64,000 bases of DNA from the NCBI RefSeq assembly GCF_029962835.1, contig NC_080574.1, forward strand, positions 28,370,001 through 28,434,000, written 5' to 3'. Position numbers and translations under genes: made by a program. Of the stretch, positions 14,550 to 21,327 are shown one piece after another (within the stretch, counting starts at the first letter, position 1; each line of letters starts with the position of its first letter). Under the pieces are notes generated by a model. It made no database searches. It was given only the letters and a program-made list of their open reading frames with translations, and was not told the DNA's origin. Origin of the DNA: Magnolia sinica (taxonomy: Eukaryota; Streptophyta; Magnoliopsida; Magnoliales; Magnoliaceae).

Positions 14550-14661
14550 TTATATATATATATATATATATATATATATATATATATATATATATATATA
14601 TATATATATATATATATACACACACACACAAAGAGAGAGAGAGAGAGAGAGAGAGAGAGAG
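14550..14661. repeat. Compound microsatellite (TA)n(CA)n(GA)n
   Basis: About 34 TA units are followed by 6-7 CA and about 15 GA units. It directly abuts the left end of a TIR element. Confidence 0.95.
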
Positions 14662-14978
14662 ATGCTCACGGCACAAGATCTCACAGGAGCTCATGAAAAC
14701 TTGTTGAGAACTCATCTCCAATGATACGAGTGCAAAATCCGAATTGTCGCTGCACCTAATGAAACCTTTAGGGCTCAACTTTTACCTTGATCCAAAACTT
14801 TGGTGGGCCATTTCAAAAGAGAGGCAAATCAATGGAGGAAATTATTTCCTTTTGCCATGGCCTACCAAATCAGATTAAAAGTTGGGGCATGGGGATTTCA
14901 TGGGGTGCTCCATCACATGGACGGAAATGAGTTCTTAAAAAGTTAGAACCCGTGAGAACTGGTGCGCTGGTGAGGATT
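14662..14978. mobile_element. Microsatellite-bounded TIR element 1 (about 317 bp)
   Basis: The left arm TGCTCACGGCACAAGATC... and the right arm ...GAACTGGTGCGCTGGTGAGG are inverted copies (I estimate 65-70% identity over about 50 bp, including ATGAGTTCT in both). The flanks are (GA)n on the left and CCTCTCTCTC, then CA and (TA)n, on the right. Rice Micron elements sit in TA microsatellites in a similar way; kinship with Micron is not claimed. Confidence 0.5.
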
Positions 14979-15012
14979 CCTCTCTCTCTTATCTCTCTAT
15001 CTACACACACCA

Positions 15013-15043
15013 TTATATATATATATATATATATATATATATA
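15013..15043. repeat. (TA)n microsatellite between TIR elements 1 and 2
   Basis: About 15 TA units separate the two inverted-repeat elements. Confidence 0.95.
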
Positions 15044-15182
15044 GGGAAAAGGTACTATACGCTCGACCGTATTATACCTTTCATAAGGTCGAGTTCTGGC
15101 AGCACATTATTAGTCGGATGGTAAAAATTTTAAACAACAGGAGATTTTATATGAAAACTGGAGAAACAAAACTGGTGCTACG

Positions 15183-15633
15183 TGGACCCCACCATAATGT
15201 ATATTTTCTATCCATGCCGTCCATCCATTTTGAAATATAATTTAAGGGATTTACATTAAAAATAAGTTATATCTGAATCTCAGATGGACCACACCATGGG
15301 AAAACAATTGTTATTGAATTTCTACCGTTACAAACTCTTAGGGCGCACTGTAATGGTTATGTAGGGAAAAATAAGTTTTTATTGAATTTTTACCATCCAA
15401 CCTATTCATAAGGTCATGTAGACGTGGATGAAGTGAAAACACAAATATCAGCTTGATCTGAAACTTCTCCAGCTCGTAAGAAGTTTTTAATGGTGGACAT
15501 TCAATCCCCACCTTGTGGTCCACTTAAGCCTTGGACCTGCCTCATTTTTTAGCTCATATATTAGAATGATCTGAGAAAATCGTTGAACGGCGTGGATATA
15601 AAACACTTACATCACGTTGGGCGCCACAAAGCC
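15183..15633. mobile_element. Palindromic family copy
   Basis: GACCCCACCATAATGTATAT at the left is mirrored by ATATAAAACACTTACATCACG at the right. The CCATGCCGTCCATCCATTTT phrase and its inverse are both present. Confidence 0.75.
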
Positions 15634-15687
15634 CTGCCTGGACGGATTACCGTCTAGGAGGTGGTAGGACACAATCTGCGTTGTAAT

Positions 15688-17190: not shown

Positions 17191-17200
17191 CTATATAAGG
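17191..17200 (+). promoter_or_regulatory. TATA box of solo LTR copy 2
   Basis: CTATATAAGG is at the position equivalent to 8657 in copy 1 and precedes a GA-rich leader (17246-17295). Confidence 0.6.
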
Positions 17201-19147
17201 GCCTAAACCCACCCCTCTCTCATTCCATACGAATTCCTAACCCTATGAGAGAGAAGAGAGAGAAAAGAGAAGAAGAAAGTGAGGAGAAGAGAGAGTGTTG
17301 GAGTTTGTTCCTGGGATTCTTCCCTGCCACTCAACGCGCTTAACCGTCATTATCGTGTCGCTATACCAGCGATCCTGATTCCATTTTCGGGTAAGAAATC
17401 CTAACCCTAACCTATTTTGGGGTTTCAAATAGAGTAAAGGATAAAATAGCTAATCTATTTCATACTGTAGGTTGCAGTTGTGTCGTAGACGACGAGTTAG
17501 ACAACGAACTGAGTTCGTTACGAGTCTACCGGCGAAAGGTGCGAACTATAAACGTTTAGGTTATGGTTTTCAAGGCTTTCAATGTCAGTTAATGATTTAT
17601 AACTGACTTGAGTGCTATCACATATGCATAGTTAGGATGTTTCAACATATTACACATTTATGCAGGTTAGGGTATTTCGAATGCATTCTAAGCGTTTGTT
17701 AAAATGTTTAAATGAATATGGAATTATGATTTGTGCTTGCTATGATTATTGATTGCTAATACATGATCGTTGTGTGTGTGGAAACTCCTATGTAAGAGAA
17801 TTTGTTATAACACGTGTTTTAACTGATTTATTACATGTATGTAACATGTGTAGACTAAGTGTTTGATAAAATACCTGAATGAAAAAATGCCAGTTTAAAT
17901 GTATGTAATGAGGGTGTTGAGATAGAATTCTCAATCCCCTTAACTATGGTTATAGTATCCTTTATACAACCTATCTTACTACTATGTGTTGTATGGATGA
18001 AATGTCTGTGTATGTGTGTAGTATGTATTTGTTAAATTGCTTAAGTAGGATTTATATCTGATTTCAGTTGTCACATGCTATTTTGGATTACTATATATAA
18101 ATGCTATTGTTTGGAATGTGATTGGGGCTACGATGTAGCCCAGGCAATCGATAATTGTCTGTGAACGGTGGTTGAACTGCTTAACCAAGACAGACACGTC
18201 CGATGAATCCGAGTCGTACGCTGCTTGTCGGCAGTAGTTAGGCCATGTGGAGTGCTTACGCGCTCCATGTCGATCGGCTTGACGTATGCTCGTACCAGTC
18301 AAGCTTGTCAAGCAACCTAGTTAACTTAATATATGTTCACCATATATGGACGCTACTGTTTGAATCTAAGGTACCAACTTACTAGTGTCAAACCCATTTA
18401 ACCTTAGTACCTCAATCCGCTAAGACTCATGAGCCAGGCATGGTGGTATGGGACATTGTGGTCGAGCTGTAGGCCTACGCTTGGGCAATGAGCCTCCCCG
18501 TAGTGTCGAGTGAGCAAACCAACTCGTGACCTGAATACAGTGGTATGAGACACTGTATTCGAGCTGTCGGCCTACGATCAGGTGACGAGCCCGTAGTGAC
18601 CTCGAGCATACACTAGAAACTACGTTGAGGTGACGAGCCTTTTTGTAGTAAATTAGAGTATAAACTAGGCCCACGCTGACGGTGACGAGCCTCTCCGTAG
18701 CAACCTGGAAACCATCTATCGTATGTGACTACTAGGATTGACGACCTTAGATGAATCAATGTTTGAGTTATGATATAAAGGGAGGTGCCTTAGCTTCTCA
18801 ATCCTGCTATATGAATATGTCTAATTAAGAACTTGGTAATCACGCTTATGCACCGCATTGCATGTGCCTTTGGCGTTGGTGTTGAGCACAGAGGAAGGGG
18901 TGCATGCCGCGACCGTAAGAGGAAGATCGCAAAGGGAGTGCAGGCGAGGGCATGCATCATTAATACATATCATTTTTACATTAACCAGAGTACTTAGGAA
19001 TGCTTGACTATATTACTTTATCATTACTGCTTGATTGAATTGATAACATGTTAACCTTTGCCTTATAGCTCCACTGAGTTGATCACTCACTCCCACGTTT
19101 TGGGACGGTGTTTTAAACACCAACCAGACTTTGTCTTAGCTGCAGGT

Positions 19148-19234
19148 GATGGTAATGCTTATGAGGCAGAGCCGGACTATTATGATGACGAGGAGGAATT
19201 CTCCTATATGCAACTCTCTGGCGGGTTTATGTAG
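19148..19234 (+). CDS. Conserved acidic 28-codon frame in LTR copy 2
   Basis: It follows an acceptor-like TCTTAGCTGCAG and reads ...EAEPDYYDDEEEFSYMQ... with a TAG stop. Length and stop match copies 1 and 3. It would be a terminal exon if it is used at all. Confidence 0.25.
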   Translation, partial: DGNAYEAEPDYYDDEEEFSYMQLSGGFM

Positions 19235-20137
19235 ACCCGGAGTTGAGTTGATGGGGCTACAGGGTTTTGGATAGAGAACATTACACTTTCTGATTTTGTA
19301 CATTTTTGAATTAAACTTGTAATTATTTAACCTAGTGACATTCATATTCTGAGGGCTTGCTATTACTTTTGTACAATTTATATTCATATCACAGTCTTCC
19401 GCTAGCGTACTTTAATTGCCTCTGGAGTATGATATGTTGTTTTGGTATAATCTCATTCATGTTTAAGGTACTAATACGGACAACATTTAATCATCATTAT
19501 CTATGTTGCATAAGTGATGCGTTGAAACTCGGGAGTTGAGTCTATGCTCGACGCCCGATTTTCAGGGCGTTACATGTATCCACACCGTCTATCCATTTTG
19601 AAATATCATTTCAGGGCATGAGTCAATGAATGAGGCAGATAAAAATCTGTAGTGGACCCACCATAGAAAACAGTGGGGAGAGTGATTCCCACCATTGAAA
19701 CTATTCCAAGGCCCACCATAATGTTTATTTGAAATCCAACCTGTTCAAAAGTTAAAAAAGACATGAAATAAGAGAAAACACAAATATCAGCTTGATCTAA
19801 AACTTTCGTGGCCTTTAGAAGTTTTCAATGGTGGGCCTCACTATCCCCATTGTTTTCTATGTTGGGTCCACTGGAGCTTTGGATTTAACTCATTCTTTGC
19901 ATATTGCACTAAAATGATCTCTCCAAATGGATGGAAGGTGTGGATATAAAACATACATCATGGTGGGGCACACGAAACTTGGTGACATCACTTCAATAAC
20001 GTTTCTAGCTATTTTAGTATCTAATCCACGCCGTGTTTCTTCAGTTTCCTATAAAATCTCCCCGCACTCGACCTTATGGAAGGTATAATACGGTCGAGCA
20101 TATAGTACTTTTTCCCATATATATATATATATATATA

Positions 20138-21287
20138 ATGGTCTCCCGCGAACCATCCTGCAGGCTACCTTGGTGCGGTCCAATTCCCACCGCAAAGAGG
20201 AAATTGGATTGCGTACTGAGTAAACTCTGTTGGACCCATTGTGAATGGATGTGGTCTATCCACGCCGTCCATCCATTTTTCAAGCACATTTTAATGGTTG
20301 AGACCAAAATTGAATCATTTCCAATGCTCAAGTGTACCATAGAATAGGAAACATTGGGTATAATAATTTCCATCGTTAAAACCTTTCTAGGGTCTACAGT
20401 GATGTTTATTTGTCATCCGACCTACTCATAAGATCACACAGACATGGATGAAAGGAAAACACAAATATTAGATTGATCCAAAACTTGTGGACCCCAAGAA
20501 AATTTTCAACGACTGACATATTCACACTGTTTCCTGTGGTGTGGCCCACTTGAGCTTTCGATATACTTCATTTTTGGGTTTAAGCCTTAAAATTATATGT
20601 TAAAATGGATGTAAGGAGTGGATGGAATATATAAATCATGGCGAGCCCACATAGTTTACTTAGTACGCAATTCGCTTCCCTGCAAGAGACCTGGGCGCGG
20701 ATTGGCTATTGACAGGTTGAGAAGTGACGTCACCAAATTTTGTGGCCCCACCATGATATATGTTTTGTATCCACACCGTCCATCCATCTGGAGAGATCAT
20801 TTTAGGGTAATATCCAAAGAATGAATCACATCCAAAGCTCCAGTGGACCCCACCACAGAAAACAGTGGGGAGAGTGACACCACCGTTAAAAACTTCTAAA
20901 GGCCACAAAAGTTTTTGATCAAGCTTATATTTGTATTTTCCCTTCTTTAATGTCTTTGTTAACTTTTGAACAGGTTGGATTTTGAAAATACATCATGGTG
21001 GGCCTTAGAAAGGTTTCAACGGTGGGCATCAATCTTCTCGGTGTTTTCAATGGTGGTGTCACTCTCCCCACTATTTTTTGTGGTGGGGTCTACTTGAGCA
21101 TTGGAAATTATTCAATTTTGGTCTCAACCATTAAAATGCGCTTAAAAAACAGATGAACAACATGGATAGACCACATCCATTCACAGTGGGCCCAACAGAG
21201 TTTGCTCAGTAGGTAATCCGATTTCCTCTTTACTGTGGGAATTAGACCGCACCAAGGTAGCCTGCGGGATGGTTCGCAGGAGACCAT
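20138..21287. mobile_element. Microsatellite-bounded TIR element 3 (1150 bp)
   Basis: The arms ATGGTCTCCCGCGAACCATC... and (complement of the right) ATGGTCTCCTGCGAACCATC... stay similar for about 200 bp, through TACCTTGGTGCGGTC and ATGGATGTGGTCTATCCA up to TTTCCAATGCTCAAGT. Two palindromic-family cores lie inside (20225-20655 and 20741-21195). The left flank is (AT)n at 20117-20137, shared with the end of element 2; the right flank is (CT)n(TA)n. Confidence 0.75.
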
Positions 21288-21327
21288 TACTCTCTCTCTC
21301 TCTCTCTCTCTCTATATATATATATAT
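21288..21327. repeat. (CT)n(TA)n microsatellite
   Basis: About 11 CT and 7 TA units abut the right end of TIR element 3. Confidence 0.95.

Follow-up and report, generated by a model that had tools for sequence, protein, structure and literature searches.

Why should three transposable elements that stand in a row all begin and end at simple repeats? The question is raised by a stretch of 64,000 nucleotides of the Magnolia sinica genome (the window, G000:C2:28370001-28434000; genome size 1.84 Gb), in which three consecutive elements with terminal inverted repeats (TIRs) have all six of their ends at dinucleotide repeats (Table 1). An earlier sequence-only reading of this DNA offered two answers: either the element families have a common preference for TA-type repeats, as Micron elements do, or the microsatellites are part of the elements and mobilise with them. 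The array is quite probably a chain of three non-autonomous Mutator-like elements (MULEs) of the SaTar or microsatellite-associated miniature inverted-repeat transposable element (MITE) kind, produced by TA-targeted stacking, later slippage of the tracts and a late insertion that left a solo long terminal repeat (LTR). The sharpest result is the family-linked polarity of the tracts: TA is a linker common to the families, and GA goes with the tip of elements 1 and 3.

Element families and their tracts

The tracts and elements lie where the earlier reading had placed them, and elements 2 and 3 do have one TA tract in common. To the right of element 1 the CT and TA that it listed are present; its "CA" there amounts to only 8 bases (ACACACAC). 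The bounds of element 2 were kept, and elements 1 and 3 were extended to about 14982 and 21292, with family tips of the form GAGK. The inverted-repeat score of each element was matched by 0 of 2000 shuffles, and the arms are 59 nt at 90% identity in element 2 and 223 nt at 86% in element 3. Outside the array, 0.8% of positions are at most 15 bp from a dinucleotide run of at least 10 bp; therefore, six of six ends at tracts is far beyond chance.

The families of elements 1, 2 and 3 (E1, E2 and E3) were searched for with the element sequences without their tracts, and 40 of 2228 (E1), 40 of 583 (E2) and 40 of 1446 (E3) candidates were scored. All three families are dispersed in the genome. The survey of ends, in which a tract is a dinucleotide run of at least 8 bp within 15 bp of the end, covered 185 distinct family ends from 85 of 90 fetched loci, 5 of these ends being in loci that overlap the window array. 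A tract adjoins 162 of the 185, versus 65/3000 in the control from the same loci and 28/3000 in that from the window; the 23 ends without a tract include some weak matches. Exact E2 tips occur 220 times in the genome, and TATATA stands directly or one base before 171 of them (0 for reversed-pattern controls). The TIR repeats are thus mostly microsatellite-flanked, as is characteristic of SaTar and microsatellite-associated MITEs. Neither of the two outcomes that would speak against the earlier reading, namely most copies without a flanking microsatellite or termini found only at this locus, was seen.

Nor are linear arrays, in which microsatellites join members of different families, confined to the window. 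In 92 loci, 29 junctions (two family ends at most 200 bp apart) were found, mostly microsatellite-linked; the linkers of L014, L043 and a few others are not pure microsatellite. Fourteen junctions, read by eye and including the window's own two, join an E1 or E3 end to an E2 end. Five of them contain CT, always on the E1/E3 side and followed by TA (L052 also has TG), and the other nine consist solely of TA or near-TA; GA and CT are absent from the E2 side of all 14. The window's two junctions belong to these two kinds, one with CT then TA, the other with TA alone.

Tips of elements 1 and 3

Read by eye, the family ends of E1 and E3 are (GA)nGGAATGCTCACCTGCGCACCA and (GA)nGTAATGGTCTCCTGCGAACCA, respectively. 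In the first 20 bases 16 agree, a value reached by 0 of 200000 shuffles, and the score of a free local alignment of the longer tips was reached by 1 of 20000. A 19-mer pattern common to both occurs 288 times in the genome (control 0). The E1 and E3 tips are shown to be variants of one sequence. The idea that all three terminal sequences are unrelated is rejected for elements 1 and 3 on the agreement of 16/20 tip bases. A third tip variant (..TGCGAACCAGTTCGTACG) was read in 10 examples, with CA, TG, TA or short GA tracts. In the window, the left GAG of element 3 is missing.

Polarity of the tracts

If a GA tract had been the target of insertion, it would read inward as GA on one side of the element and as CT on the other. 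TA is its own complement, and the test does not apply to it. The innermost tract at E1/E3 ends is GA in 60 cases and CT in 2, versus 11:11 in the loci control and 5:6 in the window control. Among 49 paired elements, 10 are GA/GA, one is CT/CT and none is GA/CT. Genome-wide, 0 of the 288 exact E1/E3-type tips have CT (CTCTCTCT) at a distance of 6 bp or less, and GA (GAGAGAGA) lies near 38 of the 148 reverse-strand tips; for GA the count from the reverse strand alone is used, as forward-strand counts repeat one end at several registers. The right end of the array, (CT)12 (AT)7, is the reverse complement of the (TA)n(GA)n seen at the left ends of family members.

Since GA reads into the element on both sides, it is not the target sequence and belongs with the E1/E3 tip. 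GA/CT as a target sequence is ruled out by the absence of GA/CT among the 49 pairs and of CT near the 288 tips. The association also follows the tip variant. When 100 listed tips of the 288 were split by eye into 30 of the third variant and 70 others, GA adjoined 26 of the 70 (26 distinct places, also counted by eye) versus 0 of the 30. Neither GA nor CT is innermost at any of the 52 E2 ends. A search for exact E1/E3 tips that directly adjoin two outer G/C bases returned one place, itself GA-like.

Probable affinity to Mutator-like elements

Two lines of evidence point to the MULE superfamily. L009, an E1 copy without tracts, has a direct repeat (ATAATCAACA / ATAATAAACA, 9 of 10 bases) abutting GAGG..CCTC; random 10-mer pairs with three offsets were as good in 120 of 200000 trials. 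MULEs have target site duplications (TSDs) of 8-11 bp (PMC5907723). For element 2, 120 of the 220 exact tips (100 listed, as far as C8, and 20 TATATA-flanked ones on C8-C10) were compared with all 77 hits to PF10551 on C1-C10, out of 150 scored. The 120 tips form 25 convergent pairs, and five of these, 11.4-14.8 kb in length, enclose a PF10551 hit, all ten ends being TATATA-flanked. An inward E2 tip lies 2.85-3.51 kb on the 5' side of 7 of the 77 hits, where 0.018 would be expected by chance (the length of C5 being assumed). The domain was confirmed for one enclosed hit, whose translation matches PF10551 at 6.3e-34. E2-tipped elements of 12.25 kb lie at C1:123532685-123544948 and C3:53301159-53313406, and a MULE frame of 780 amino acids was noted. 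The same tips are therefore found on elements with a MULE transposase, as judged by tips of 21 bases, and element 2 is best read as a putative non-autonomous MULE. ATATA flanks element 2 on either side, which agrees with a TSD having an odd number of base pairs, possibly 9, and not with a 2-bp TA TSD; a TA-duplicating mariner MITE is ruled out for element 2 by these flanks. Six other E2 pairs, of 6.5-6.8 kb, may represent derivatives, either deleted or captured.

This size class accounts for 6 of the 25 E2 pairs, and L109, from the middle of a 6.7-kb pair, contains the motifs GCTACGGAT and ATCCGTAGC.

Paralogous insertion sites

The outer flanks of the window array are part of a repeat, and the earlier reading had proposed a search for empty sites that hold only the microsatellite. 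One array-free paralogue was found (C17:10334363-10334640). Its flanks are 75 bp apart, and the AT-rich gap holds AATTATATATATAGTATAATAATACC, with (TA)5 as its longest dinucleotide run and no GA, CT or CA tract. L107 (C1) matches both flanks, with (AC)16 at the same spot and no element. Two further paralogues match a single flank: in L106 (C19) it is the left one, and AT-rich DNA comes next; in L108 (C4) it is the right one, and an E1-type end, recognized by eye, stands where the left flank would be. When the fetched loci were searched locally for paralogues of the flanks, the matches listed were mostly neighbouring family members. The site paralogues are 73-83% identical and therefore show the kind of site, not its exact state before insertion.

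Origin of the array and competing explanations

The above observations are consistent with the following scenario. Elements would be inserted by a MULE transposase where the DNA is TA-rich or has TA repeats over a short length. Each TA tract next to an element would in turn offer a target to later ones, leaving neighbours with a common linker. Slippage would afterwards lengthen the tracts, with the TA originating in the target and the GA/CT in the GAG tip of E1/E3. Finally, a retroelement probably entered element 2 and left its solo LTR. For the TA repeats, the first answer of the sequence-only reading, a common preference of the families, is supported, since most examined copies are tract-flanked, the 29 junctions are mostly tract-linked and the array-free site has a short TA run only.

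The second answer, that the microsatellites are carried by the elements, was half borne out. In this version (TA)n(GA)n would either form the actual end of the element and share its excision and insertion, or fill the space between the joined ends of a circle that recombines with a genomic tract; a circle/recombination model has been offered for SaTar arrays (PMC5907723). It agrees with the mirror-image arrangement of tracts around E1/E3 copies, with the inner GA, which keeps to the polarity and family of the element end, and with cases such as L103 and L104, in which one or both flanks are unexplained by a simple TSD. However, the two tracts of a single element are of very unequal length, the outer tract type varies among copies, and L009, a single case, has no tract at either end and a bare GAGG tip beside its direct repeat. 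Going by this last case, the tract would arise at the tip once the element is in place and would not be carried along, and we regard carriage as unlikely. A plain preference for pre-existing long compound microsatellites, without any contribution from the element, is very unlikely. Many ends adjoin TA only and one paralogous site has (AC)16 without an element, as such a preference would have it, but the GA/CT pairs that it predicts are missing, which contradicts it for GA/CT, and GA, found next to E1/E3 tips, is innermost at none of the 52 E2 ends and lies near none of the 30 listed third-variant tips.

Tc1/mariner-type MITEs that duplicate TA are barely credible here. The flanks of element 3 alone are readable as TA..TA, but those of element 2 misfit a 2-bp duplication, which contradicts the idea for that element, and both the PF10551 associated with E2 tips and the imperfect 10-bp repeat of the E1 copy L009 speak against it. 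Long repeat tracts are difficult to assemble, and the array is known from a single assembly. Nevertheless, chance placement or an assembly artefact in repeats has a negligible probability, as recurrence of the same grammar at dozens of unlinked loci contradicts it. Finally, a bolder variant of the slippage step is conceivable, if rather doubtful: the MULE tip may dictate the adjoining microsatellite (GAG tips acquiring GA, GGG tips staying in TA, the third variant having CA, TG or TA), with transposition or gap repair writing a family-specific repeat at each end and so building the next landing pad.

Several points weigh against the chain of TA-targeted MULEs preferred here. The type of the tract is not strict: the innermost tract at the 88 E1 ends is TA in 23, CA or TG in 13 and absent in 12, CA or TG is innermost at 7 of the 52 E2 ends, and the CT/CT pair among the 49, the E1 pair L004, has CT inward on both sides. 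The TSD-like repeat was found in one E1 copy, L009, and none was found for E2 or E3. The link of E2 to the large elements is by 21-base tips, not full TIRs. The six E2 pairs of 6.5-6.8 kb have no scored MULE hit (150 of 1104 candidates scored), and L109 (G000:C1:131023400-131024000, 601 bp) has no long open frame. For E1/E3, none of 36 scored PF10551 hits on C1-C5 lies less than 73 kb from the 100 listed tips. With regard to the sites, the C17 gap has about 50 bp absent from the window, the identity of the paralogues marks them as old, and the (AC)16 of L107 indicates that tracts there need no element. Slippage after insertion is itself an inferred step.

Composition of the array and other repeats of the window

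Table 1. Features of the element array, with positions in the window
Feature	Position	Strand	Remarks
Left compound microsatellite (TA)34 (CA)6 A (AG)15	14551-14661		(TA)34 14551-14618, (CA)6 14619-14630, (AG)15 14632-14661; GA reads into element 1
Element 1	14662-14982		Degraded E1 copy; terminal sequence of the family, by eye: GAGGAATGCTCACCTGCGCACCAGTTCTCAC
Linker between elements 1 and 2	14980-15043		(CT)5 (14980-14989) on the element 1 side, degenerate CT/CA stretch, (TA)15 (15014-15043) on the element 2 side
Element 2	15044-20116		Putative non-autonomous MULE; length about 1.9 kb when the solo LTR is left out
Nested TIR element	15688-16316		GGAAGCGGATTGG..; inside element 2
Solo LTR (TGTAACG..CGTTACA)	16420-19574	+	3155 bp; TSD TGTAT; inserted in element 2
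TA tract common to elements 2 and 3	20117-20137
Element 3	20137-21292		E3 family; family end GAGTAATGGTCTCCTGCGAACCATCC, read by eye
Right array end (CT)12 (AT)7	21290-21327		(CT)12 21290-21313, (AT)7 21314-21327

Element 2 is a composite of an element of about 1.9 kb, a 3.2-kb solo LTR and an older TIR insert; its interpretation as a 5-kb transposon is ruled out by the solo LTR, which is absent from the sister copy L071, where the sequence is rejoined across the 5-bp duplication. The initial 1153 bp of element 2, with most of the nested TIR element, are matched by another E2 copy, L062, and part of the nested element is also present in L071. Therefore, the nested element is older than the spread of that E2 subfamily. 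Within the window, element 2 is interrupted only by the solo LTR and by this TIR element, whose ends adjoin no tract. Element 1 has no stop-to-stop frame of 120 amino acids, and five open frames of the window, when scanned against Pfam, gave 0 families each.

The nested TIR element has an 81% copy at 42748-43362, with an imperfect direct repeat near that copy's ends. Further copies of the solo-LTR family lie at 7878-11046 (solo, TSD CTTAA) and 61827-62947 (partial). A palindromic core (..CCACACCGTCCATCCATTTT..) is common to elements 2 and 3, the nested element and about 10 more places at 64-86% identity, with different ends; these include 15044-16430, 19577-21288, 11750-12610, 23890-24804 and 41236-43362, and in places the cores are more alike than the ends. 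A minisatellite of 21/42 bp (TTCACGGTCAATTCC..) at 62949-63551 has opposite orientation on its two sides, as if it were an inverted repeat made of tandem repeats. The CA tracts at 34095-34144 (25 units) and 35773-35786 (7 units) have alike flanks on both sides and represent a duplicated microsatellite locus.

Relation to known microsatellite-associated elements

Stacking in TA repeats is already described in other plants, and the array reported here is a new example. The notion of microsatellite-preferring element families, put forward in the earlier reading, is likewise in print (PMC5907723, PMC8449440). Valdes Franco et al. (2018, PMC5907723) report SaTar arrays of the same architecture from guayule, rice, sorghum and citrus, of which the first two also have autonomous MULE partners. 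As here, the SaTar elements of guayule and rice are small TIR elements whose copies are mostly microsatellite-flanked and form mixed-family linear arrays joined by microsatellites; a minority have 10-bp TSDs, autonomous MULEs have like TIRs, and the flanks are often unexplained by a TSD. In contrast to that description, the inner tract type follows the tip family here, and element 2 is interrupted by a solo LTR. The likeness, between different genomes, is one of architecture, the tip sequences not having been compared.

The Ac-mMITEs of pineapple (Lin et al. 2021, PMC8449440) are also similar: they have TA tracts, with GA mostly 5' and TC mostly 3', and tips that begin with GA and end with TC. 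In that study the copies were non-nested, a minority had 9/10-bp TSDs, 46.1% of the full-length copies were clustered, and slippage was proposed. Whereas the Ac-mMITEs are described as two families with TIR similarity, E1/E3 tips mix here in one genome with the unlike E2 and third-variant tips. MuTAnT of Medicago (PMC4486113) consists, similarly, of MULEs in TA microsatellites with a putative autonomous element; its TSDs are 9 bp, and TA repeats are fewer at unoccupied than at occupied sites. Its TIR mask, GGGGTTTGCTAGAACA, differs from the E2 tip, and arrays are absent from the passages on MuTAnT. Micron of rice (Akagi 2001, as cited in PMC5907723 and PMC12550479) is a short element flanked by TA microsatellites with TIRs later tied to a MULE, a resemblance noted without comparison of the sequences. 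A survey published in 2025, covering 207 plant genomes, states that elements of the Micron type are extensive in Poaceae and Rosaceae, with only a few species outside these families having any (PMC12550479). A search of one paper library on MITEs, microsatellites and Mutator in Liriodendron and Magnolia gave no report for this lineage among the matches listed, and one on SaTar gave a single relevant paper among those listed.

The present array extends microsatellite-targeted MULE arrays to another plant genome. The polarity rule is a simple sequence test that separates a target tract (TA) from a tip-associated one (GA), and it lets the question of whether microsatellites attract transposons or arise from them be asked family by family.

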